Source: a virus. Taken from it: a DNA stretch of 29,148 nt. This document shows, one piece after another, positions 15,359 to 27,136 of the stretch. A program made the position numbers and the translations under genes. The notes under the pieces are model-generated. The model did not search any database and was not told the DNA's origin. It was given only the letters and a program-made list of their open reading frames with translations. The stretch covers positions 1-29,148 of IMG/VR virus record IMGVR_UViG_3300036832_000207. The stretch is one strand, 5' to 3'. Position 1 is the stretch's first letter. Each line of letters opens with the position of its first letter.

Positions 15359-16017
15359 CAGACTTCCAACCTAATATAATGCATGAGCAGATTGTTGGCC
15401 GCTCCACCCAGCAGACCCGACATTGCGGAGCCGGAGAACAGGGCCTTGTTCGCCATCGTTGTGTTATCGAAGTACATCACCCTGCTTTCTTTGTGCGATA
15501 TGCTTCTGATCCCGCTCACGGCCAATCGGTTCATGAGCGCCTGACCTTCTCTGACCATCAGGATGGTGGCCTGCTTGAGCGCTGGAGGAGCCCCCTCTGG
15601 CAACTCGTAGCCACCGGAGTACGTCACTGAGATCGGTTCAGAGTTGGTCCCTAGAAATTCAATCTTGCCAGACTTTGCCTCGACGGCGTAGGTGGTCGGA
15701 TCGAGCGGAGTTCCAGTGGGGCTCTCTATGAAAATTCCAGCATCGGTATCGATCGGGTAGTGGCTCAAGAACAAGCGCTTCATTGAATTCGTGTCATCAT
15801 AGTTCACGCATCGCCAAATCTCCGAGACCTCCTCGTAGGCGAACACCCTATTGCAGAGGGTGGCAACCACGTCGGAGTATTGGCTGATGTAGGTTTGAAG
15901 CAACTCATCCTGGCTGGTATCCGTGGTCGGGATACCCATCATCAGCTTCACCTCATCGAGCGTGATGAGATCGTACGTGTCCGATGGAGTAATGATCTTG
16001 ACGATCCTATCAGCCAC
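15358..16017 (-). CDS. Head-tail connector protein (HK97 gp6/YqbG-like)
   Basis: This 219-residue protein has the gp6-like connector pattern: an N-terminal LITLDEVKLMMGIP helix, QDELLQTYISQYSDVVATLCN, a middle strand region with an FLSHYPI motif (the usual L-x-x-x-P segment), a YSGGYELPEG turn, and PALKQATILMVREGQ, the A-x-x-x-x-V-x-x-x helix typical of these proteins. It forms the ring below the portal. I chose GTG 16017 because GAGGAG at 16030-16025 lies 7 bases upstream; the GTG at 16023 would be only one base from that site. It overlaps the collagen-like gene by 8 bases. Confidence 0.8.
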   Translation of the reverse strand: MADRIVKIITPSDTYDLITLDEVKLMMGIPTTDTSQDELLQTYISQYSDVVATLCNRVFAYEEVSEIWRCVNYDDTNSMKRLFLSHYPIDTDAGIFIESPTGTPLDPTTYAVEAKSGKIEFLGTNSEPISVTYSGGYELPEGAPPALKQATILMVREGQALMNRLAVSGIRSISHKESRVMYFDNTTMANKALFSGSAMSGLLGGAANNLLMHYIRLEV

Positions 16018-17410
16018 GTCCACTCTCCTCGTTGTATTGCTCGAATAGATCGCGCATGCGGATCGGCTCCGCCTCCGTGCCGTCGGACAGGATCGGAGTA
16101 ATCATGTAGGACGCGCGATCTATCTTCCACATCAGGAAGCTCGATCCGTCCTTGCCGGGCATTCCTCCAGGACCTCGCTCGCCCTTCTCTCCTGGCTCCC
16201 CACGCTCTCCCTTTATGCCCGGCTTGCCCGGCTTGCCGGCGCTCGCGATCAACTGCCAGCCATCTCCTGGGCAAGGTCCTGGCTCATCGCACTTGGCAAT
16301 GAAGCTAGAGCCGTTCAGCGCAACGATATTGAGAAAGCGATATGCACCAGTCTCGTTGTAGGTCCCCTTGATCAAGGGAGTTGATGCACTACGGCCAGCG
16401 GCGGCGACACAGCCCCAATCCTCATGGGGAGGGACTGCGGCCGTGTCGCACTTTGCTTGGTATGTGCTGCCGTGATGCATAACCAGGTCGCCTCGGTAGT
16501 TGACGCGACCATCGACGAAGCTCCCGACCTCTCTCAGGAGCCCCGTCGCCCCATCTTTACCGGGCTCGCCGGCCTTACCTTCGAGCCCTTGTTCGCCCTT
16601 TTCGCCTCGATCGCCCTGTTCGCCGCGACCACCTTGTTCGCCTTTTTCGCCTTTCTCGCCATCTTTTCCTCCAACTCCTCTCTCGCCTTGCTCACCACGT
16701 TCACCCTGGGGACCAGGATCACCCTTCTCGCCGAGCTTCCCTTCGGGCCCCTGGGCACCAGGATCGCCATCTGTCCCGCGATCGCCCGGACTACCTCTTT
16801 CACCAGGGTCGCCCTTTTCACCGCGCTCACCGGGCTCGCCCTTCCCGTCGAGGCCTCGCTCGCCCTGCTGGCCCTGCTCGCCTCGATCTCCAGGCTCGCC
16901 CTTCTCTCCGCGCTCGCCCGGTTCTCCGCGTCCACCTGGCTCACCCTGCTTACCTGGTTCACCTGGCTCTCCGCGCTCTCCGAGCTCGCCCTTCTCTCCG
17001 CGTTCTCCTGGGCCACCTTGCTCTCCCTTTTCTCCTTGCTCACCCCGTAGACCTAGATCGCCCTTCTCGCCCATCGGTCCGGGGTCGCCCTTCTCTCCCT
17101 TCTCTCCAGGGGGTCCGGCAGCACCGGGCAGGCCGGGCGGGCCAATGCTGCCGTCTCTCAGTTCCGCGAGGCGAACGCTGATCCGTTCCTCCATGGAGCA
17201 GAACATCGTGACGATCTGAACTTCCAGTCTGGAGACAATTGCGGAAGATTGCGCCTCCATCAATTTATATTGGCGCTCCCAGTCCAGCGTTGCCTTATCG
17301 AGCGTCTCAGCTAACGCTATCCTCCACGCATCAAGAAGGATTTCTTCGCTGTCTTCCGACTTGCTCGGTGAGCCTAAGAAGGTTCCTAACTTCCCGTTGG
17401 ATGCTGTCAT
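16010..17410 (-). CDS. Collagen-like virion protein with two carbohydrate-binding-like modules
   Basis: This 466-residue protein has a helical N-terminus (about 22-86, coiled-coil-like), a Gly-X-Y collagen region (about 90-289, with one register break at GLDGKGEP near 187), two related modules (about 303-338 and 349-390), a second short collagen stretch (392-422), and a unique C-terminal 45 residues. The modules read YRGDLVMHHGSTYQAKCD...DWGCVA and GAYRFLNIVALNGSSFIAKCD...GWQLIA, the pattern of chitinase-type (CBM5/12-like) binding modules, each with extra Cys. Its place between portal and connector is not usual for a fibre; it may form neck or head whiskers. ATG 17410 overlaps the portal by 80 bases; a later start would lose the helical part. 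Confidence 0.8.
   Translation of the reverse strand: MTASNGKLGTFLGSPSKSEDSEEILLDAWRIALAETLDKATLDWERQYKLMEAQSSAIVSRLEVQIVTMFCSMEERISVRLAELRDGSIGPPGLPGAAGPPGEKGEKGDPGPMGEKGDLGLRGEQGEKGEQGGPGERGEKGELGERGEPGEPGKQGEPGGRGEPGERGEKGEPGDRGEQGQQGERGLDGKGEPGERGEKGDPGERGSPGDRGTDGDPGAQGPEGKLGEKGDPGPQGERGEQGERGVGGKDGEKGEKGEQGGRGEQGDRGEKGEQGLEGKAGEPGKDGATGLLREVGSFVDGRVNYRGDLVMHHGSTYQAKCDTAAVPPHEDWGCVAAAGRSASTPLIKGTYNETGAYRFLNIVALNGSSFIAKCDEPGPCPGDGWQLIASAGKPGKPGIKGERGEPGEKGERGPGGMPGKDGSSFLMWKIDRASYMITPILSDGTEAEPIRMRDLFEQYNEESGRG
16018..16030 (-). promoter_or_regulatory. Ribosome-binding site deciding the connector start
   Basis: GAGGAG at 16030-16025 sits inside the 3' end of the collagen-like gene with a 7-base spacer to GTG 16017. 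It is the reason for preferring that start over GTG 16023. Confidence 0.5.
16541..17152 (-). repeat. Collagen Gly-X-Y coding repeat array
   Basis: About 67 near-continuous Gly-X-Y triplets, rich in GEK, GER, GEP and GEQ, are encoded here. The 9-base periodicity is visible directly in the DNA. One triplet is short by a residue near codon 190. Confidence 0.9.
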
Positions 17411-18746
17411 GGCTGACCTTCTCTGGCGGCGGTCCGTCGCTCGGTTTTGCGTCTTGGGGTCCCGCGGCAGGGGGAGCGGCGGGAGCCGCAGGAATTTTAT
17501 CGGCGGCGCTCAGCGGGACGACTTGCTGCTGCACGCGAGGCTCATCTCCGAATGGAACGGAGTCGAGGCTCTCCGAATTGCGGGCCTCGTTGGGTGCATA
17601 GATGCCGCCCTGAACTCCTCGAGCGAGCGCCTCTATGCGGTCCTTCAGGGCAGAGCGCAGGAGCACCGCGGTATCGAACTCGACGTACTCGTCCGGCTGA
17701 CCCTTGAGCTGGAAAAGATTGCCGATCGCCTCCTCAACGTGGTTGAGGCAAAAGCCCAAACCCATGGCGATCCAGCTCTGCATCAGCAATTCGGTGGAAG
17801 CATACGGGGCGCCGCCGAGCCCGAGGATTTGCAGCGGGACCCTGAACGCGAGCGCGATGTGCTCGTTCGAGAGCTTGAGCATTTCTGCCGTGGCCGCATC
17901 CTTGCCGGCGACGGCCCATGGCTGAACCTTCAATCCTGCGGTCAGTATGGGAGTGCCACCCTGGTTGAGCCCCTTCACCTGCTCGTTCCATCTATCCCGC
18001 AGGGCCTGGACCTGATCCTTATCGAGCACGAGGTCGGTGGACAAGACCGCAGATGGTCTCGCCTCATTCATATAGAACGACATTTGTTGCTTGGCTATGG
18101 CCTCTGATACTCCGATGTCCCCATAGGTGGAGACGATCGGGCTCTCACCAACCAAGGGGATCGGGTAGCGACGCTTGATGTGGAGCCGAATGTGGAGCAC
18201 GTCGCGCGCTGGCACGACGAGATACTCCTCGTCCAACTGCTTTGCGATCACATCGTTGCCGCCGAGCCAATAGAATATCTCCCCACCCACGGCCAAGCGA
18301 GGGTAGGAGACATCGGGGTTCATGATGTGGAGTTCTGAGATTTCATATCTATCGTTGCGCAGGGCCAATGCATAGGCATTGCCGTTTAGATAAACGTGGC
18401 GCACGATGTTCAGCATGAAGTCGCTGATCGACTGGTAGGCATTGGGGTATCGCAGGATGCGGGCGAGCGCAGAGGTCTTGACCCTGTCTCGCCCGCCCTT
18501 CGAATTACCACGCCAGTGATCTCCAGGGCACATGGCGACGGTCTGCGCGTAGGCAGATACGCAGGCCTCCACCATGGCCGAGCACGTAGAGGCATACAGG
18601 GGGTTGTAACCCTCCTGCCACCAATTGATCGCCGCACCATTGGGCAACCATCCGCCGGTGATGGGCAGATGGTACGGCCCTGGACGAACGCTGCCCTCGA
18701 CTGCCTTTAGGACAGACCTCAGGGTACTGGCGATCAGAGCACGCAT
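17331..18746 (-). CDS. Portal protein (HK97 family)
   Basis: This 471-residue protein forms the dodecameric vertex through which DNA is packaged. Family features are the early NPLYASTCSAMVEACVSAYAQ helix, LARILRYPNAYQSISDFM with HVYLNGNAYALALR following (the classical L-x-x-P-N and L-x-x-GNAY segments), DVLHIRLHIKRRYPIPLVGESP, KQQMSFYMNEARPSAVL, and AFRVPLQILGLGGAPYASTE, corresponding to the conserved F-x-VPP-x-xLG motif. The last 70 residues are Ala/Pro-rich and then basic. The start lies 6 bases after the upstream stop. The gene comes after the capsid genes in transcription order, whereas in most HK97-type blocks it comes before them. Confidence 0.93.
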   Translation of the reverse strand: MRALIASTLRSVLKAVEGSVRPGPYHLPITGGWLPNGAAINWWQEGYNPLYASTCSAMVEACVSAYAQTVAMCPGDHWRGNSKGGRDRVKTSALARILRYPNAYQSISDFMLNIVRHVYLNGNAYALALRNDRYEISELHIMNPDVSYPRLAVGGEIFYWLGGNDVIAKQLDEEYLVVPARDVLHIRLHIKRRYPIPLVGESPIVSTYGDIGVSEAIAKQQMSFYMNEARPSAVLSTDLVLDKDQVQALRDRWNEQVKGLNQGGTPILTAGLKVQPWAVAGKDAATAEMLKLSNEHIALAFRVPLQILGLGGAPYASTELLMQSWIAMGLGFCLNHVEEAIGNLFQLKGQPDEYVEFDTAVLLRSALKDRIEALARGVQGGIYAPNEARNSESLDSVPFGDEPRVQQQVVPLSAADKIPAAPAAPPAAGPQDAKPSDGPPPEKVSHDSIQREVRNLLRLTEQVGRQRRNPS

Positions 18747-18752
18747 TCAGAT

Positions 18753-19055
18753 TTACTCGTGCTTGGTTTTGCCGGCCGTTTGCTCTTTGGTCTGATAGTT
18801 TTGCGCCCTGCTGTGGGGCGCGGCCTCCATGCTCTTGTTGTGGAGGGGATCATTCGGATCGGGATCACTCCCATCGGGATCGTGCTCGATGATGTGGGCA
18901 CCGAGCATGGCCATGTCATTCTCCTCCTGGGTAGGAGTAGGCCTACCCTTGGAGCGAGATGCATAATCAGCCCTGGACTTGTCAGAGACCCTACGCTCGG
19001 TTTCGAGAACCCTCTTGGCATTCTCGGTCATTTCATTTTCCGCATACTTGGTCAT
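18753..19055 (-). CDS. Small hydrophilic protein of unknown function
   Basis: This 100-residue, strongly charged protein has no hydrophobic segment. The N-terminal half is helical (ENAKRVLETERRVSDKSR), then RPTPTQEENDMAMLGAHIIE, a DPDGSDPDPNDP acidic turn with calcium-loop-like spacing, and a Lys/Gln-rich end. I recall similar small proteins next to portal genes in alphaproteobacterial phages but know no function. It has a good ribosome site (AAGGAGAG) and follows a hairpin after the capsid gene. A packaging, scaffold or decoration role would only be a guess. Confidence 0.7.
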   Translation of the reverse strand: MTKYAENEMTENAKRVLETERRVSDKSRADYASRSKGRPTPTQEENDMAMLGAHIIEHDPDGSDPDPNDPLHNKSMEAAPHSRAQNYQTKEQTAGKTKHE

Positions 19056-19115: not shown

Positions 19116-21242
19116 CTACCAGGTGACGTTCTGGACCCAGGCGACCGTGCCCGCGCGACGCTGCGTCCAGTTCAGGGGCAACACCATCCTCAGGGCAAGG
19201 CTGTCCGTCTGGAACAGAGAGCGCTGCGGAGAAGCCACCGTGCCCGGAGAGCCAGTGCCGACCAGCTCCAAGGGTGCGGTATCCTCCATGTGGAGCGTGG
19301 CCTGATCGGACATCTCCATTCGAGGAGCGTCACCGCCGATCACCACGAAGTCGGCAGCGTCCACCAAGATCATCGTTTTTGCGGGAATGGTCGCGCTATC
19401 GATGAACGGGATGGTGGCCAGAGACCCGCCGCGAATTTCCTCGCGGAACGGGAAGATACCGGTATTCGCCGCAGTGAGCAGGGACGCGCGGAGCATGTCG
19501 GTCTGGTTGACGAGCCAGACCAAATTCCGCACGTTGCCGAAAGTATTCGTGCTGATCGCATTGATCATATTGACCAGATCGCCGATCAGAGCAGCAATCG
19601 CACCATTCGTGATCGCCGTCGCAGTCTGCGCGGCCACGCCATTGAGCAGGCCCGCGGGCCTGATCGTGGTGGCCGGATTGGCGTCGATCAGAACGCTGTC
19701 GATCGCAACGCTGGTATCCTGTTGGATGGCTTCCCTGAGCAGGCCCTCAATCGCCGGGATGGAGTGCTCGTCCATCTCCCGCGTCCAGGTCGTGATCACT
19801 GCCATCTTCTTCGGAGTAAGCGTCTGGCTGGTGAACGCTCCCTGCCTGACTGGAATAGCCAGACCCTCACCGACGAACGAGCCAGCGAGGCTGGGCGTGC
19901 GCGAGCGTGTGGGAATGACGATCCTGCCGGCGCTCCCAAAGCTCAAGGCCAATCCCCTAGGCGCGAGCCGAGTGAGAATTGCATTGGGCATGAGCAGCGG
20001 CATCAGGGCAGTATAGGTGGTCTGCGCGAGCTCCTGGGCCCAACCCGCGACCGTAGTCAGGGCAGGAGCAGAGGCGGCACGAAGCACGATATCGGCCACA
20101 ATCTTGGTGGCCTCATCCTTGTACTCCGGGTGGCGCTCTCCGATCTTTGCCCTCGCGGCCTCGAGCGTGCTACCGGCTGCCTTGGCGAAATATACCAAGG
20201 TACTGGCCTTGACGAACAGTTCGAGCACGTCGAAGCTGTCCTTCTTTCGGTTCAGGATTACCGCCGGGGCCGCCGGGTCCTCCTTGTGATCCTTATGGAT
20301 CACGGTCGTGGAGAGAGCACGAGAGCCCTCCGGACCGGTGGTCTTGGCCAAGAGTTTCTCGCTGGCGATCAGGGCCTCGCGGGTCTTTTCCAACTGGCAA
20401 ATATCCGCGTTCAGCTTCGAGGTCGTCTCGAGGTCCGTATTGCTCACATTGCTGTCGTCCATCTTGCCAATGTGATCTTCGAGGTTCTCACGCTTGGAAG
20501 TGATTGCGGCCTCCAAGTCGATAATGCGCTGTGCTAGGCTAGACATATGTCTGCCCTTTCCGTTTCGATTATTATTTCTGGCGTGCCCGCCGTTGAGCCC
20601 TCGATGCCTGACCCGATCTCCATTGCCTTGCCCGGCGAAGATCATGCCGATAGTCTCGGGTGAAATATTCAAGCTCTTGGCCACAGCCAGTGCGTTCGGG
20701 TTCGCCGGAACGGCCACCACGCTGCATTCAACGAGCTCACTCTTCGTGTAGATAGAGCCCCAATCGGTGCCCTCTCTCCTCTTGGTCTCTATCGGTTTGA
20801 AACCAACGGAGACTGCCTTCAGGATGCCGGCGTCAACCAGCCTCCTAATCTCATCGATCCTGGGGCTCGTGCCCTCCGGCGCCATCTCTAGATTGGCCCT
20901 CAGGCTCTTGCTCTCCACGCGGATATTCTTCCACGTCCCTATCGGGAAGTCAGAACGATGACCAAATAGCGCGATCGGGTTTCTCTTGAAATCCTTAAAA
21001 TCCCAACCGTCGCTCATAATGATATCATCGAGACGATCAGGGGTCTCGTCGGACAGGATAAACTCCATCCCGCCTATGCTGCCCTCGTGGGTCTTGACCT
21101 TGAGGCCGCTCGCGCCTCGATCATCCCAGAGCATTTGGCAGACGTCCTCGTTGCCTATCTCGTCCACGCAATCGCTGATGAACTCATCCAACTCATCATC
21201 GTCGTATTCGCTCGGGTCGGGCACTTGCTTGGCCATATCCAT
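19116..21242 (-). CDS. Prohead protease-major capsid protein fusion (HK97 type)
   Basis: This 708-residue protein joins two functions. After an acidic 45-residue leader, residues 49-190 are an HK97-type prohead protease: GGMEFILSDETPDRLDDII, NPIALFGH with probable catalytic His95, and LKAVSVGF with probable Ser145, then VECSVVAVPANPNAL. A basic low-complexity linker (205-232) is followed by a helical delta/scaffold-like segment (234-300) and an HK97-fold capsid domain (about 335-708) with LRAASAPALTTVAGWAQELA, FVGEGLAIPVRQ and a QTDSLALRMVLPLNW end. Protease-capsid fusions occur in several phages. The capsid domain is paralogous to the gene at 22986-24050. An internal ATG at codon 233 has a good ribosome site. 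GAGGAGAT precedes the main ATG. Confidence 0.92.
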   Translation of the reverse strand: MDMAKQVPDPSEYDDDELDEFISDCVDEIGNEDVCQMLWDDRGASGLKVKTHEGSIGGMEFILSDETPDRLDDIIMSDGWDFKDFKRNPIALFGHRSDFPIGTWKNIRVESKSLRANLEMAPEGTSPRIDEIRRLVDAGILKAVSVGFKPIETKRREGTDWGSIYTKSELVECSVVAVPANPNALAVAKSLNISPETIGMIFAGQGNGDRVRHRGLNGGHARNNNRNGKGRHMSSLAQRIIDLEAAITSKRENLEDHIGKMDDSNVSNTDLETTSKLNADICQLEKTREALIASEKLLAKTTGPEGSRALSTTVIHKDHKEDPAAPAVILNRKKDSFDVLELFVKASTLVYFAKAAGSTLEAARAKIGERHPEYKDEATKIVADIVLRAASAPALTTVAGWAQELAQTTYTALMPLLMPNAILTRLAPRGLALSFGSAGRIVIPTRSRTPSLAGSFVGEGLAIPVRQGAFTSQTLTPKKMAVITTWTREMDEHSIPAIEGLLREAIQQDTSVAIDSVLIDANPATTIRPAGLLNGVAAQTATAITNGAIAALIGDLVNMINAISTNTFGNVRNLVWLVNQTDMLRASLLTAANTGIFPFREEIRGGSLATIPFIDSATIPAKTMILVDAADFVVIGGDAPRMEMSDQATLHMEDTAPLELVGTGSPGTVASPQRSLFQTDSLALRMVLPLNWTQRRAGTVAWVQNVTW
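20544..20561 (-). promoter_or_regulatory. Possible internal ribosome-binding site and start inside the protease-capsid fusion
   Basis: GGAAAGGG at 20561-20554 stands 7 bases before ATG 20546, which is codon 233. This is exactly where the basic linker ends and the scaffold-like helix (MSSLAQRIIDLEAAI) begins. Starting here would give a 476-residue delta-capsid protein without protease. This is inference only. Confidence 0.4.
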
Positions 21243-21245
21243 CTG

Positions 21246-21800
21246 CTATCTCCTCATAAAGGCCAGCCAAGAGTTTTTTACGCTCACTATCGGCCAGCCC
21301 TGCTCGTGGAGGCTCCTTAGTGCCTCGGTGACTTCCACCCCCGGATTTTGATAATCGTGCCAGACTATGATGCCGCCTTCCCTGACCAAGTCTCTCGCTA
21401 TCAGACTCTCGTGGATCACGGCCCTGAAACTATGGTCACCGTCTATAAATACCGCGTCGCATGGCTCTAATTCTTTCGTGGACAGGAATTGCGTTGGTCT
21501 GGTCAAGAGATAGAAGCGATCATCTTCAGCGTAACGCCCAGCCTCGTATGGGACCTCGGACAGTTGACATGCCAGAGTCGTTTTATAATCGGGCCACACA
21601 TCTATGCCGATGTATCTTTCCAGCGTGGGCACGTTCTCCAGGACCTGCTTGGCCGTGATCCCCAGGTTGCATCCGAACTCAATCATTACCCTCGGCTCAA
21701 CGCTCTTGACCAAGTCGACTAGAATCGAGCACTCCGTGGCACCGAGATAGTGGGAGAAATGTCCGGCCAAAATAGGAGGTGTTATGGTCTCGGTTCTCAT
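21246..21800 (-). CDS. Class I SAM-dependent methyltransferase (Methyltransf_24-like)
   Basis: This 184-residue protein is a compact Rossmann methyltransferase. Motif I is RVMIEFGCNLGITAKQV (38-54, the E-F-G-x-x-x-G loop that binds SAM), followed by YIGIDVWP (63-70, acidic ribose contact), DAVFIDGDHSF (115-125) and GGIIVWHDYQNPGVEV (142-157). The IDGDH and HDY motifs are those of Methyltransf_24-type enzymes, often acting on sugars or small polar groups in surface-glycan loci. ATG 21800 overlaps the TGA of the glycosyltransferase-like gene as ATGA; the TTG at 21824 is disfavoured. It lies between two capsid genes, so a virion glycan or capsid protein is the likely but unproven substrate. Confidence 0.82.
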   Translation of the reverse strand: MRTETITPPILAGHFSHYLGATECSILVDLVKSVEPRVMIEFGCNLGITAKQVLENVPTLERYIGIDVWPDYKTTLACQLSEVPYEAGRYAEDDRFYLLTRPTQFLSTKELEPCDAVFIDGDHSFRAVIHESLIARDLVREGGIIVWHDYQNPGVEVTEALRSLHEQGWPIVSVKNSWLAFMRR

Positions 21801-22981
21801 CTCTGTGCCAGCGCGCTCGCCCAATCGTTCGTCTTCGTCTGCCTCAGCAATTCAACGTTGTCGTACCACCTTGCCGTCCACCTCCAGCTCGCCCAATTCG
21901 ATAGGAGCCCATAGACGGTCGAGTGACCTATGGCGCCGGCCAAGTGCAGGGCCGCCGTGTCGACGCTGATGATCTCATCCATGCAGCACATCAACGCCGC
22001 GCAATCCTCGAAGTCTTTGAAGTCGTGCGTGTTGACGCCGCACGCGTTGGCCTGCTCGACGTCCTGACGCTGGACGCTGTGAAGCTCCGCATCCGTATCC
22101 AACAGATCAACTAGTTGTCTGATATCGATTTCCCTCGGGTAATCATCCTTGTTTGGATAGCCCACGGACCAGGCCAGACCGATCTTTTTCTTCCTCGAAC
22201 TCAACCTCAGCTCCCACCTGTGGGCGAGGTCCTCGTTGGGCTCTAGATATTTCTCTCCGCTCACCATATCCGGAGTGAAAATGCCTCGCATGTATGGCAG
22301 GTGGAATATCGGACAGAAGAAATCAGCGTCGACCAAATTCGGTGTTGTTAGACCAACCTGTCTGGCCAGGGCCATGAGCTCCGGCGGCATCACCATCACC
22401 GAGTTGCCCAGACCCCCGACGTACCGCAGGCACATGATCGTATCGCCGAACCCGTGGGAGTGAAGCAACAGCAATCTGCGACCCTCGAGCTCCTCGCCCA
22501 TCCATGGTTTCAATCCAGCGGCGAGCGCGGCCTTGACCTGCGGCCTCATGAACAGATTGTGTTGCTCGGCCCTCCAATACTCGGTAAAGCCTTCCTTCCA
22601 GAGCCCAGCGGCCAACAGGAGGAAACTGCGACCGAAGCGGGCGGTCAGCGTGGGAGCCACCCGCAGGGTCAGATCGCTTTCTTCTAGCGCCTCCGAAATT
22701 CTATTTGTTTTGTAGAGGTCCATCACCCTGTTGAAGTGGAGCAGATACTCGTCTATATCTATTCCATCGTGATTGCTCACGCTCCTTTTGCCGATCGCTA
22801 TCCCGCCCCTCGCCACCGTGATCGAGCTCGGCACACCGGTAAAGTGCCCGTTGGTCTTGACCTCGAGCACCTCTCCATTTTCTGTCAAACCCCTCCAACC
22901 GTAGGGGGTCTGCTCGTGAGCGATCACCGGATCGAGCTCCGGGAGGTCATCCACATAGGGACTGACGTGCGGCTCATTCAT
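21797..22981 (-). CDS. TPR-glycosyltransferase-like protein (GT9/GT41-type fold)
   Basis: This 394-residue protein has an N-terminal region of unknown type (1-75), a TPR-like helical pair (about 76-140, HFNRVMDLYKTNRISEALEES), and a GT-B-like part. There LLLLHSHGFGDTIMCLRYV (170-188) parallels the E-Q-G-x-GDTI-x-x-RY motif of TPR-linked glycosyltransferases, KKIGLAWSVGYPNKDDYPRE (265-284) the GL-x-W-x-G-x-P-x-H segment, and VDTAALHLAGAIGHSTVYGL (340-359) the conserved DTA-x-x-HLAGA sugar-nucleotide region. It probably glycosylates a protein or a glycan acceptor. It starts at ATG 22981, 4 bases after the capsid stop; TTG 23014 is disfavoured. It overlaps the methyltransferase gene, so the two are probably co-translated. 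Confidence 0.78.
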   Translation of the reverse strand: MNEPHVSPYVDDLPELDPVIAHEQTPYGWRGLTENGEVLEVKTNGHFTGVPSSITVARGGIAIGKRSVSNHDGIDIDEYLLHFNRVMDLYKTNRISEALEESDLTLRVAPTLTARFGRSFLLLAAGLWKEGFTEYWRAEQHNLFMRPQVKAALAAGLKPWMGEELEGRRLLLLHSHGFGDTIMCLRYVGGLGNSVMVMPPELMALARQVGLTTPNLVDADFFCPIFHLPYMRGIFTPDMVSGEKYLEPNEDLAHRWELRLSSRKKKIGLAWSVGYPNKDDYPREIDIRQLVDLLDTDAELHSVQRQDVEQANACGVNTHDFKDFEDCAALMCCMDEIISVDTAALHLAGAIGHSTVYGLLSNWASWRWTARWYDNVELLRQTKTNDWASALAQR

Positions 22982-22985
22982 TGGC

Positions 22986-24050
22986 TTACTTCCAAATCGG
23001 AGTGGTCCAGGCAACTCCCCTCGCGTCCCTCAGGACCCAGGACACCGGCCAGCGAACCTTGATCGCGATCGCATCCGTCTGCCACACGCTGCGCTCCGGC
23101 CCCATGGTGCCGGCTGCTCCGGGCGCGGTATCCATGACCAGCGTGGCCGCATTTCCGGTCTCGATGTCCGGATCGGGACTGATGGCCGCGGCCACCGCCT
23201 GCGCGGCCACGGCGATTATATCGTTTCCAACTGCGGCCGAAGGAACGACCACGAGCTCTGGGTCGTTCGTCACGAACCGTTGCTTCATGGTGCCATATCT
23301 TCCAACGTTGCCGATTAGGTAGTACGGACCACGTCCTCCCACGGCGCCAACCACATTGAGCAATGCGGCCACGTCCTCAAATGCCGAGCCGAACGGATCG
23401 GTGTTGGCCGACGGAGCGGTCGTGGATATCCCGTTCCTGATCCCAGCTGGCCTGCCCGCACTGGACGCGACGTTATCGAAGAACGCCGCGTCGATCGCGA
23501 GCGCGGCAGACTTGACCAATGCGTCAGAGATCAATGCCTCGGCGTTCGAACTCTCCATCATCTCCCGCGACAGGACGCTGATCGATGCGACCTTGTAGGG
23601 ATTGAGTTGAGTAGAAGCGGAGGAGAATTGCCTGACCGGAATGGGCGAGCCCTCTGCGACGAAGCCACCGTTGCCAGCGCTGGCAGCGAGCGCGGGAACG
23701 GTAATGGCTCCGTAGCCATCCCAGCCCACCACCAGACCTGCCTGCATCACCTCGACGGCACTGGTGGCCGCGGCCAGGGCCTCCGCTGCATCGGCCACGA
23801 CCTTCTGGGCGAGCTCTGCCGCCCAACCGGCCACCGTGGTCATAGCTGGGGCGGATGTGGCCCGCAGCAAGATCGCGGCCTGGAGCGACTTGTCGTTGGG
23901 CCACATCGCCTCGGCCACGTCCTGCATCTTGCAACGCTTCAGCGTGGCGAGCGTCTTGGCGGTCAGCAGTCGCGTGAACAGATTTCCGCTCGGCAAATCC
24001 AACAGCGGCTCTTTCTTGATGAACGGTTTGACCGGAGCTAAGGAGTTCAT
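22986..24050 (-). CDS. Second HK97-fold major capsid protein, stand-alone
   Basis: This 354-residue protein is a paralogue of the capsid half of the fusion at 19116-21242. LLRATSAPAMTTVAGWAAELA (61-81), FVAEGSPIPVRQ (130-141), the SREMMESS/TREMDEHS helix start (161), ALAIDAAFFD (183-192) and the end SVWQTDAIAIKVRWPVSW (321-338) each have a counterpart there in the same order. It has only about 25 residues before the capsid domain and no protease or obvious scaffold segment, so it would depend on the fusion protein for assembly and maturation. The gene has an AGAGGGAAAC ribosome site. It could be a second shell protein, a pentamer-specific subunit or a capsid variant. The fold call is firm; the role is not. 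Confidence 0.87.
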   Translation of the reverse strand: MNSLAPVKPFIKKEPLLDLPSGNLFTRLLTAKTLATLKRCKMQDVAEAMWPNDKSLQAAILLRATSAPAMTTVAGWAAELAQKVVADAAEALAAATSAVEVMQAGLVVGWDGYGAITVPALAASAGNGGFVAEGSPIPVRQFSSASTQLNPYKVASISVLSREMMESSNAEALISDALVKSAALAIDAAFFDNVASSAGRPAGIRNGISTTAPSANTDPFGSAFEDVAALLNVVGAVGGRGPYYLIGNVGRYGTMKQRFVTNDPELVVVPSAAVGNDIIAVAAQAVAAAISPDPDIETGNAATLVMDTAPGAAGTMGPERSVWQTDAIAIKVRWPVSWVLRDARGVAWTTPIWK

Positions 24051-24059
24051 GTTTCCCTC

Positions 24060-24458
24060 TCACATCACGTTGTGTCTCGGAACCTTGCCAACAAGATTGA
24101 CCACCTGGGTCTCTCTCTTGACTGCCACAGCTGTTGCTACGAATGGATCGGCCATCACGCTGAGCTTGCCAGTATAAGGCGTTGAAGTAATTCCGCCGGT
24201 TATGATCCTGAGCGCGTGGGCATAGTTGGCAGTCAGCAATCTCGTGGACACATTCGATCCAATCTTCACGGATAGCTTCCCGCCAACTGCATTGGTGATG
24301 GTAATGGTCGTTTCATTTGCCGCAATAACTCTGTGTCCGGATTGATCTAGGATCGTCCACAGCGTCTGCGGTGATCCGCTCAGATCAAGTGGGAGCCCAT
24401 CCGCGTCCACTAGTGTGAAGCGAAGCTCCCAATCGTCGCCGGCTATCAGGTCTGTCAT
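24060..24458 (-). CDS. Small beta-rich virion protein (BppU-N-like fold suspected)
   Basis: This 132-residue protein begins MTDLIAGDDWELRFTLVDAD and continues GLPLDLSGSPQTLWTILD, then a TITITNAVGGKLSVKI strand pair, LTANYAHALRI and YTGKLSVMADPF. The GDD-W-x-L-x-F-x-L-x-D-x-DG-x-P-x-DLS pattern with later G-x-L/I-x-V strands is common in small phage structural proteins related to the N-terminal domain of baseplate/fibre proteins such as BppU. It ends just before the second capsid gene, so a capsid-decorating role is equally plausible. Its start overlaps the stop of the repeat protein by 4 bases. Confidence 0.62.
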   Translation of the reverse strand: MTDLIAGDDWELRFTLVDADGLPLDLSGSPQTLWTILDQSGHRVIAANETTITITNAVGGKLSVKIGSNVSTRLLTANYAHALRIITGGITSTPYTGKLSVMADPFVATAVAVKRETQVVNLVGKVPRHNVM

Positions 24459-27136
24459 GGCATGTGCCCAGTGTTATCGATCGGCCCGCCCACGTCACCT
24501 TCCAGAGACGGAGGAGAAGAGACCCGACCGGTGAGGTCAGGTCTCTTCACCTGTCCGAGGCGTGGAGAGAGCGCCGCGAGTTGTCCAATAAATTCTGGTC
24601 TCTTGACCTGACCGACGAAGTCTCCCCCGAACATTCGCCCGCTGGTATCTCTTCGTCCTACGGCAGAGGCCGCACCCAATCCAAGCGCGATACCGTTTGC
24701 GCTGACCAGCGCCTTGCCTATGCTCGAGACCGTAGCCTGACCGACCGCGAGACCCTGCGAGCTTCTAAGCCCGGTGCCGACCGCGAGGCAAGTAGAGGTC
24801 CCGTGGGCAGAGCCTACGGCAAACTTGATCCCGGTACCGAGCGCAGTGCCGATGCCCGATCCCTGCGCGAGACCCTGGGCCGCTGCCTTAGTAGCTCCGA
24901 CCGCAGAGGCGGCACCGAGCCCGGAGGCAACACCCTGGCTTTGACCAGTAACGGCAGAGGTGGCGGCCGCGGCGCCGGTGCCGGACGCGAGACCCTGCGA
25001 GCTATTAATTCCGGTGCCAACTGCGGACGCGGTGCTCGTGCCCGCTGCCGCGCCCTGGGCTATTGCTAATCCAGTACCAAGGGCAGAAGCAGAACCTATA
25101 CCGGAGGCTGAGCCCTTGCTCGCCCCAACGGTGGCAGAGGCAGCGCCTATGCCGGCAGCGAGACCAGTAGCAGAGTTAATCCCAGTCCCAACTGCGCTTG
25201 CGCTGCTCGTTCCAGCAGAGGCGCCGACGGAAGAATTAATCCCAGTTGCTACGGCGGAGGCACTGCCCGCGCCCGCTGCCGTTCCCTGTCCTGCCGCCTT
25301 GCCCGTTGCCGCGCCAAGCCCTGCGGCCAAGCCCTGCGAGGCCATGGCGCCAACGGCCGCGCCCACTCCTGCAGCGAGGCCCTGGGCCGCGGCCTTAGAT
25401 GCGCCAACGGCAGACGCGGCCCCGATGCCGGATGCCGCTCCAACGAAGGTCCCGCCGGCAATTCCAGTAACCGTGCTTATGCCTGCGGCAGAACCCTGGG
25501 CGCTAGCGAGAGAAGCACCCACGCCGGATACGGTAGAACTACCGGCGCTTAGACCCGCGGCAGAGAGGATGCCGGCGCCACTCGCCGCGCCCAGCCCCGA
25601 GGCAGAACCAACAGAAACCGCATTACTCGAACCAACGGCGCTCGCCGCGCCCGTGCCCGAGGCCGCTCCTTGCGAGAGTGCGGCAGACCTTCCAACGGCG
25701 GCCGCTGCGCCAATGCCGGCCGTCTGGCCCTGCCCAAATAGTATGCCGGTACCAACGGCAGTAGCCGCGCCAATACCAGAGGCCGCACCGGCGGAGCTAG
25801 CCGTGCTCCTCCCGACTGCTACGCCAGCTCCTACACCACTGGCCGTACCAGCGGCAGGATTAATCCCAGTCCCCACGGCGCTCGCCGCGCCGGTGCCGGA
25901 TGCCAGTCCTGGCGAGTTGGCCGTGCTCGCTCCGATAGCGCTCGCCGCACCTAATCCAGCGGCCGCACCCTGGGCGGAAGTAATCGCGCTGCCAACTGCG
26001 CTCGCGGCGCCAATCCCAGCCGCCGCGCCCTGCGCGACGTTCAGCGCTATACCGACAGCGGCCGCGCTACCTAGTCCTGCGGCCGCGCCCTGCCCGGTAA
26101 AGCGGCTCGCGCCGGTTGCGGTCGCCGCGCCTAGTCCTGCCGCAGAGCCCTGCGACCTATCGAGAGCAGCGCCGACCGCCGTTGCAGCGCCGACGCCGGA
26201 CGCGGCACCGGTGCTGATGGTGAGAGCGATACCAACCGCAGCGACTGCGCTCGTAGACCAATTGCCGAAACCGGCCGGCGCCGTCGCGGCATAGGCCGTT
26301 GCGCCGAAATTGAAAGTGAATTGATCCGGCGTCCAAGGCAGACCAATCGCGGGCCATACTTTGCCGGTCAGCGCCGTGAACAATGCAGCGCCGGTCCCGG
26401 TGGCGGGATTGGCCGTGCCGCTTGAGTTCCAGCCTGACGCGGCCGTTATGTCTATGACCCACGCCCCGTGGCCATCGACGTCGATAGCCATGCCATAGAC
26501 GTGGCCGGTGACGTGCGTTACGCCAACATCAACGCCGGAATTGTCAGTACCAAACCATTGTCCGACTTGATTGTTGCCGATGCTCTTGGTGGCATCTTGG
26601 CCTAGCTGCGCAGAGCGCACCTCAGAAGCGTTCGCCAATCCAACGAGATTATTGCTGCTGCTGTTTGCCGTGTACTCAAAATAATATTTACCGGTTGCCT
26701 TGCCTATGTTCGCGAGCGAATTGCCATTATCGCCTCCAGAGGAGGCCGTGAGATTACCATTGGAGAGCGTAACCAAAGAACCTAATTGCGCCGGATCAAG
26801 CGTTGCAGTGACGGCAAACGAACCGCCAGCCGCCGCGCCTTGCGCGGTGATGATGCCGGTGCCGACTGCTGTTGCCGCACCGACGCCGGACGCGGCACCG
26901 ACGCTCGCGCCAGCTACACTGACCGCAGTCGCTGCGCCTAGTCCTGCGGCCGCGCCGACCGCCGCATTGATGCCGGTGCCGACCGCGTTGACCGTGGCCG
27001 TGCTCGTTGAAGAACCAACACCAGAAGTAACGCCGCCGCCGCCAAACAGGATCGGAAGCCTGTTATAGCCGAACTGTTGCGGTGCAGACCAGCCGGCATA
27101 CCTATAATGGCGAAAGACCGGCCCGCGAAACGTCAT
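24455..27136 (-). CDS. SPRY-domain protein with long 20-residue Gly/Ala repeat array
   Basis: This 893-residue protein begins with an aromatic N-terminus (MTFRGPVFRHYRYAGW) and a GGGG hinge. Two to three copies of a 20-residue repeat (55-110) are followed by a SPRY-like domain (about 113-293: LSNGNLTASSGGDN, GKYYFEYTANSS, VGLANASE, then WPAIGLPWTPDQFTFNFGAT). About 26 further copies run from 310 to 828 with consensus G-A-A-S/A-G-x-G-A-A-S/T-A-V-G-x-x-x-x-x-x-Q. The last 65 residues carry GQVKRPEFIGQL and GQVKRPDLTGRV, a second small repeat. The array is low in charge and has few aromatic residues, as in a rigid beta-solenoid or Gly-rich helical bundle. It is probably a long virion surface fibre. 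No coiled coil or enzyme motif is seen. Confidence 0.8.
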   Translation of the reverse strand: MTFRGPVFRHYRYAGWSAPQQFGYNRLPILFGGGGVTSGVGSSTSTATVNAVGTGINAAVGAAAGLGAATAVSVAGASVGAASGVGAATAVGTGIITAQGAAAGGSFAVTATLDPAQLGSLVTLSNGNLTASSGGDNGNSLANIGKATGKYYFEYTANSSSNNLVGLANASEVRSAQLGQDATKSIGNNQVGQWFGTDNSGVDVGVTHVTGHVYGMAIDVDGHGAWVIDITAASGWNSSGTANPATGTGAALFTALTGKVWPAIGLPWTPDQFTFNFGATAYAATAPAGFGNWSTSAVAAVGIALTISTGAASGVGAATAVGAALDRSQGSAAGLGAATATGASRFTGQGAAAGLGSAAAVGIALNVAQGAAAGIGAASAVGSAITSAQGAAAGLGAASAIGASTANSPGLASGTGAASAVGTGINPAAGTASGVGAGVAVGRSTASSAGAASGIGAATAVGTGILFGQGQTAGIGAAAAVGRSAALSQGAASGTGAASAVGSSNAVSVGSASGLGAASGAGILSAAGLSAGSSTVSGVGASLASAQGSAAGISTVTGIAGGTFVGAASGIGAASAVGASKAAAQGLAAGVGAAVGAMASQGLAAGLGAATGKAAGQGTAAGAGSASAVATGINSSVGASAGTSSASAVGTGINSATGLAAGIGAASATVGASKGSASGIGSASALGTGLAIAQGAAAGTSTASAVGTGINSSQGLASGTGAAAATSAVTGQSQGVASGLGAASAVGATKAAAQGLAQGSGIGTALGTGIKFAVGSAHGTSTCLAVGTGLRSSQGLAVGQATVSSIGKALVSANGIALGLGAASAVGRRDTSGRMFGGDFVGQVKRPEFIGQLAALSPRLGQVKRPDLTGRVSSPPSLEGDVGGPIDNTGHMP
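24653..26209 (-). repeat. Diverged 60-bp tandem repeat array (main block)
   Basis: About 26 in-frame copies of a 60-base unit encode the 20-residue Gly/Ala repeat. The period is kept almost perfectly from codon 310 to about 515, with a few units of 18 or fewer residues (around codons 510-620) and recovery afterwards. The copies differ at many third positions, so the array is not recent. Confidence 0.88.
26807..26974 (-). repeat. Upstream copies of the 60-bp repeat
   Basis: Two to three copies of the same 20-residue unit (GAAAGLGAATAVS, GAASGVGAATAVG) precede the SPRY domain. The domain therefore looks inserted into, or capped on both sides by, the repeat. Confidence 0.75.

Follow-up and report, generated by a model that had tools for sequence, protein, structure and literature searches.

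In phage T4, gp24 is ca. 20% identical to gp23, has a propeptide of 10 residues and forms pentamers, and mutations in gp23, some of them in the A domain, can bypass gp24 (PMC9958956). What is understood of the division of labour among shell subunits comes mainly from this phage; when open-licence papers were searched for further phages whose shells have two HK97-fold subunits, T4 was the clear case. Fusions of the prohead protease to the capsid protein, grouped as phrog_617, occur in Pseudomonas phage PAJU2, Salmonella phage FSL SP-016 and Rhizobium phage RHph_X2_26, which have one capsid gene adjoining TerL, the gene for the large terminase subunit. Here we analyse IMG/VR virus record IMGVR_UViG_3300036832_000207 (29,148 bases; hereafter the window), which carries its head and tail genes on the − strand and encodes two HK97-fold capsid proteins, one fused to a protease and one free. 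A preliminary description, made from its letters alone, had reported this pair and had known of few phages with the arrangement; the latter view requires correction, because separate hexamer and pentamer subunits have a precedent in T4 gp23/gp24 (PMC9958956). The capsid features are:

22986..24050, − strand: free HK97-fold capsid subunit of 354 amino acids (aa), without protease and without delta/scaffold part
19116..21242, − strand: prohead protease-major capsid protein fusion of 708 aa, phrog_617
20673..21059, − strand: S78 prohead protease domain of the fusion, about residues 62-190
20240..20672, − strand: linker/delta-like (scaffold) part of the fusion, about residues 190-335, with inferred limits
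19119..20240, − strand: HK97-fold mature capsid part of the fusion, about residues 335-708

Both capsid open reading frames (ORFs) are present in full at these coordinates, which rules out a frame-split artefact in the window. In the fused protein, Pfam profiles identified Peptidase_S78 (residues 88-186, E 6.5e-9) and Phage_capsid (residues 407-645, E 6.8e-11), and the match to phrog_617 covers almost the whole length (E 9.7e-85). The free protein aligns with the capsid part of phrog_617 only (profile positions 300-520, E 8.5e-17); its ORF has no N-terminal S78 protease and begins at the capsid part, with its N terminus approximately where the mature capsid part of the fusion starts, so that only the fused copy carries protease and scaffold-like parts, as had been proposed. 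The two proteins are 32% identical over 322 aa (BLASTP, E 2e-32), and a comparison of profiles built from 40 free-copy and 43 fused-copy relatives aligned residues 19-351 of the free protein with the fused capsid family (probability 100, E 2e-52). Judged by these alignments, the resemblance is full length and far beyond chance, and the two E values rule out a coincidental likeness of motifs. The shared blocks singled out in the preliminary description are therefore real, with 47 positions conserved in both families in the joint alignment, and its claims of two HK97-fold paralogues and of a full capsid domain in the free copy are likewise upheld.

Structure prediction, which had been suggested as a check, agreed with this for the free copy alone. 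Its AlphaFold (AF2) model (predicted local distance difference test, pLDDT, 80; predicted template modelling score, pTM, 0.68) gave 257 PDB matches at E <= 0.001, and the best 50 of these 257 (E 1e-11 to 7e-8) were all HK97-fold shell proteins, from phages R4C, HK97 and D3, encapsulins, P4/P2 and a gene transfer agent. The AF2 model of the fused capsid part was poor (pLDDT 56), and its assignment to the HK97 fold rests on the Pfam and PHROG matches. The "two capsid proteins" of Stenotrophomonas phage SOVA965 were considered as a parallel and rejected, since they are adjacent halves of one capsid gene.

The free copy matched 41 loci in IMG/VR, and the fusion at least 129; repeat loci of one contig were removed, and some of the remaining contigs are near-identical assemblies of one population. 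Both genes occur on 62 distinct contigs, with the free copy always upstream and on the same strand. Within the two-capsid clade, the free copy is present in 53 of the 57 contigs whose sequence upstream of the fusion reaches 3 kb, and the other four end inside the cassette, with a glycosyltransferase gene or a third capsid paralogue at the edge. Close relatives of the free copy were also found, as prophages, in three of 266 Bradyrhizobium species genomes, one of which has three separate prophages; the order is TerL - free copy - glycosyltransferase (methyltransferase) - fusion - portal, as read in those stretches in which a TerL could be recognised. The prophage of Bradyrhizobium stylosanthis BR 446, which by its gene coordinates is IMG/VR contig L073, was found by profile search; a single-sequence search of the genome contigs, unlike the profile search, gave no match, and INPHARED phages yielded no close relative of the free copy. 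Because the order is the same on all these contigs and the pair recurs in the prophages, the arrangement is a conserved family trait and not a single-contig oddity.

The number of capsid genes varies among relatives. A sister clade, which includes prophages in Aureimonas, Mesorhizobium and Enterovirga, has the fusion only: the free copy is present in none of nine contigs with enough upstream sequence, nor in four whole records of 45-77 kb, which indicates that a shell can be built without it. Other relatives contain, upstream of the fusion, a third HK97 paralogue of about 333-344 aa (in L044, L093/L094, L139 and L145, as well as in the free-copy contig L038), located as follows:

L044, 4631-5641: third paralogue
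L038, 5251-6282: third paralogue
L094, 3955-4953: third paralogue
L139, 1892-2893: third paralogue
L145, 3-956: third paralogue

Additionally, Bradyrhizobium prophage G058 has a very divergent free-like HK97 gene (L200:8785-9828) directly before its protease-capsid fusion.

The two capsid genes evolve at different rates. Among 37 genomes with both, the mean difference is 44% for the free copy and 26% for the mature capsid part; the corrected distances of the free copy are 1.9 times larger and correlate with those of the capsid part (r 0.69; Mantel, 0/2000). In pairs with measurable dS, the ratio of nonsynonymous to synonymous substitution rates (dN/dS) ranged from about 0.03 to 0.37 in the free copy and from 0.05 to 0.23 in the main capsid part, and both genes are under purifying selection. 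These sequence data suggest that a family of soil phages, here encountered in Bradyrhizobium as prophages, has retained a second shell protein that evolves separately from the first.

Sequence divergence between the two families is unevenly distributed. In the joint alignment, with approximate block limits taken from the free-copy model, consensus identity is 0.46 for the E-loop block, 0.41 for the spine and 0.40 for the C-terminal block, versus 0.19 for the A-domain block and 0.20 for the N-arm. The A-domain block, of 54 residues, holds five of the 16 sites that are conserved differently in the two families, and the AaNTGIFPFR region (residues ~590-600), conserved in the fusion family, is largely missing from the free family. 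Seen on the model, this distribution suggests that the contacts between capsomeres look kept and those at the capsomere axis changed.

A complete HK97 fold without protease or scaffold, conserved across the family, makes a two-subunit shell the most economical reading of the sequences. The free copy probably serves as a dedicated second subunit of the shell, co-assembling with the fusion-derived subunit and being of a minor or vertex type comparable to T4 gp24. The fused precursor would nucleate the shell on the portal, and the free subunit, lacking a delta/scaffold domain and a protease, would probably join such shells. The E-loop, spine-helix and C-terminal P-domain blocks kept in the free copy would tie neighbouring capsomeres; together with the change in its A-domain part, which would meet at the capsomere axis, they suggest a subunit of minor or vertex type with capsomeres of its own, most likely pentamers, like T4 gp24 beside gp23. 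We infer that the free protein is present in the virion, co-assembles there and occupies the vertices.

Several observations weigh against this proposal. The closest relatives outside the free family are lone capsid proteins of satellite type, which may function differently, and a simple hexamer/pentamer split does not predict the third paralogue of some relatives. No sequence relation to T4 gp24 was found, the free protein having no Pfam match and its profile no match among PDB sequences, and we do not claim that it belongs to the gp24 family. Likewise, the assignment of the A domain depends on a monomer model of moderate confidence (pTM 0.68), and the model of the fused capsid part, at pLDDT 56, is unfit for a structural comparison of both copies.

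A tree of 65 sequences resolved the fused capsid parts (support 100/98), the third paralogues (100/98) and the free copies (100/99) as separate clades. Outside phages, the free copies were closest to lone HK97 genes from other Bradyrhizobium genomes; a wide clade uniting free copies and lone genes had support 98/79, and its core 100/99. Forcing the phage capsid parts and free copies together, with exclusion of the lone genes, was rejected (log-likelihood, lnL, -108; approximately unbiased (AU) test, p 6e-5), and the wide clade was not rejected (p 0.49). A recent tandem duplication of the capsid gene of the same phage is thus rejected as the origin of the free copy, with the caveat that long branches make deep placements unsure; the term "paralogue" in the preliminary description holds as to full-length homology, not as to such a duplication. 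A transfer between phages and elements is compatible with either direction.

We read eight of the lone HK97 loci in context, three of which have the order integrase - primase - lone HK97 - TerS (small terminase subunit):

L195, 6316-14521: lone-capsid element, integrase - primase - HK97 - TerS
L196, 6992-15057: lone-capsid element, integrase - primase - HK97 - TerS
L207, 3165-12904: lone-capsid element, integrase - primase - HK97 - TerS

No portal, protease or tail genes were found near the lone HK97 gene of these three, and L207 additionally contains a TerL-like fragment; the other five (L197-L199, L206 and L208) have an integrase, without recognised primase or TerS. A search confined to the PF04860 portal family gave none on the lone-HK97 contigs and none genome-wide in G282, G096, G266 and G089. 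Two of the elements, L199 (3725-8249) and L198 (2186-4156; by similarity to L199), encode an OLD-like AAA ATPase, and L199 also a reverse-transcriptase-like polymerase; both are possible defence cargo. By gene content, the lone-capsid elements appear satellite-like, and we present them as a lead rather than as a demonstrated satellite family. Capsid-forming phage-inducible chromosomal islands (cf-PICIs) carry genes for the capsid protein, protease, portal, connectors and both terminase subunits (PMC10690885). The Bradyrhizobium elements resemble cf-PICIs in encoding an HK97-type capsid protein and TerS, but gave only these two, apart from the one with the TerL-like fragment.

The affinity of the free copy to these satellite-like lone proteins, closer than to the capsid protein of its own phage, together with the three elements in which neither portal nor protease was found nearby, could be taken to mean that the free protein is not a standard virion part but an interfering or regulatory capsid homologue, either dominant-negative or size-redirecting, that came from satellites or acts against them. 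We consider this rather unlikely, because an optional gene should come and go, whereas the free copy stays in the head operon, beside the capsid-portal genes, in essentially every contig of the clade that is long enough, and it co-diverges with the capsid gene under purifying selection. It is also conceivable, although rather unlikely, that scaffold-less HK97 subunits form a lineage shared by phages and satellites, which the satellite-like elements would carry as their sole shell subunit in order to remodel the helper shell and which the Bradyrhizobium phage clade would have fixed as a second shell protein; the phages might then use it for their own vertices, to set head size or to block the hijacking of their heads by satellites.

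The free subunit could also be placed in a mosaic shell, within the hexamers of the main protein at random or set sites, or only in special capsomeres, such as those at the portal or involved in a switch of size. The E-loop and P-domain blocks are indeed the best kept between the families, and the third paralogue suggests more than two subunit roles; nevertheless, the A-domain block, which packs like subunits within a capsomere, is the most divergent (19%), which disfavours mixed capsomeres and makes this arrangement unlikely. Finally, a redundant or decaying copy, functionless and left by duplication or recombination, would fit the faster evolution of the free gene but is highly improbable, being rejected by a dN/dS well below 1, open frames and a conserved position.

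The preliminary description had also stressed that the capsid copies enclose two transferase genes. These genes, and those that follow the fusion, are:

21797..22981, − strand: tetratricopeptide repeat (TPR)/GT9-like (heptosyltransferase-like) glycosyltransferase, between the capsid genes in most relatives
21246..21824, − strand: Methyltransf_24 family methyltransferase, frequent but not constant
18753..19055, − strand: small 100-aa protein between capsid and portal, conserved in the family
17331..18746, − strand: portal protein (PF04860, phrog_12)

The methyltransferase matches Methyltransf_24 (Pfam, E 8.5e-12), and the GT9 match of the glycosyltransferase is weak (PF01075 in 11 of 14 family members, best E 2e-4). 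The glycosyltransferase gene most likely starts at the ATG near 22981 and not at the TTG at 23014, because similarity in the nearest relatives begins at about that point, and hence it would not overlap the free capsid gene. Between the capsid copies of the 62 contigs there are both transferases in 37, the glycosyltransferase alone in 18 and neither in seven; six of the seven come from one population, and the BR 446 prophage is among the seven. In two single-capsid relatives the cassette is situated between capsid and portal, with a glycosyltransferase in L108 (10471-11145) and a methyltransferase plus glycosyltransferase in L116 (6050-7500), which shows that these genes can either precede or follow the capsid gene. 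The pair is thus not supported as a functional part of the two-capsid system, given its absence between the copies in those seven contigs and its presence, in part or in full, without a free copy in L108 and L116: the two transferases are there, but as a frequent and separable cassette, and "enclosing" does not belong to the mechanism. Phage-encoded glycosyltransferases are suspected to modify capsid proteins in mycobacteriophages Che8 and Rita (PMC11256854). By analogy, the products of the cassette may modify capsid or fibres, with the difference from Che8 and Rita that the GT9-like gene is located in the head operon and has capsid genes on both sides.

Read 5′ to 3′ on the − strand, the genes of the window are those for an 893-aa repeat protein, a 132-aa phrog_1084 protein, the free capsid protein (24050-22986), the TPR/GT9-like protein, the Methyltransf_24 protein, the protease-capsid fusion (21242-19116), the 100-aa protein and the portal, and past it a collagen-like fibre, connectors, contractile sheath and baseplate; the window is a myovirus fragment. 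The 893-aa protein (24455-27136, − strand) is of low complexity, with GAASAVGTG-like units and a phrog_10080 region, and adjoins the phrog_1084 protein; relatives of one or both occupy other head-region positions in the related contigs L050, L068 and L071. The collagen-like fibre gene (16010-17410, − strand) overlaps the end of the portal gene, follows the portal throughout the family and is a possible head fibre and a possible target of the two transferases.

Within a single family, capsid genes number two in one clade, one in its sister clade and, in occasional members, three, which offers a natural series on the split between hexamer and pentamer roles. Additionally, an exchange of shell subunits between phages and satellites is suggested by the link to the lone-capsid genes, which also points to a testable new route by which satellites could take over helper heads. 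Compared with the phrog_617 fusions of PAJU2, FSL SP-016 and RHph_X2_26, the main protein is alike in joining S78 and HK97 in frame upstream of the portal, whereas the two-capsid family has a contractile tail and carries the free copy as an extra gene placed between TerL and the fusion. As in T4, one phage encodes a major capsid protein and a second HK97-fold homologue of it, the second with little or no propeptide; gp24 is thought to have derived from gp23 by duplication. Unlike in T4, the main copy is fused to a protease, some members have a third paralogue, and the free copy is tied phylogenetically to satellite-type capsid proteins; the vertex position is, for the free copy, a proposed one. 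In both systems, however, the one-protein state is viable, as seen in the T4 bypass mutants and in the sister clade described here.

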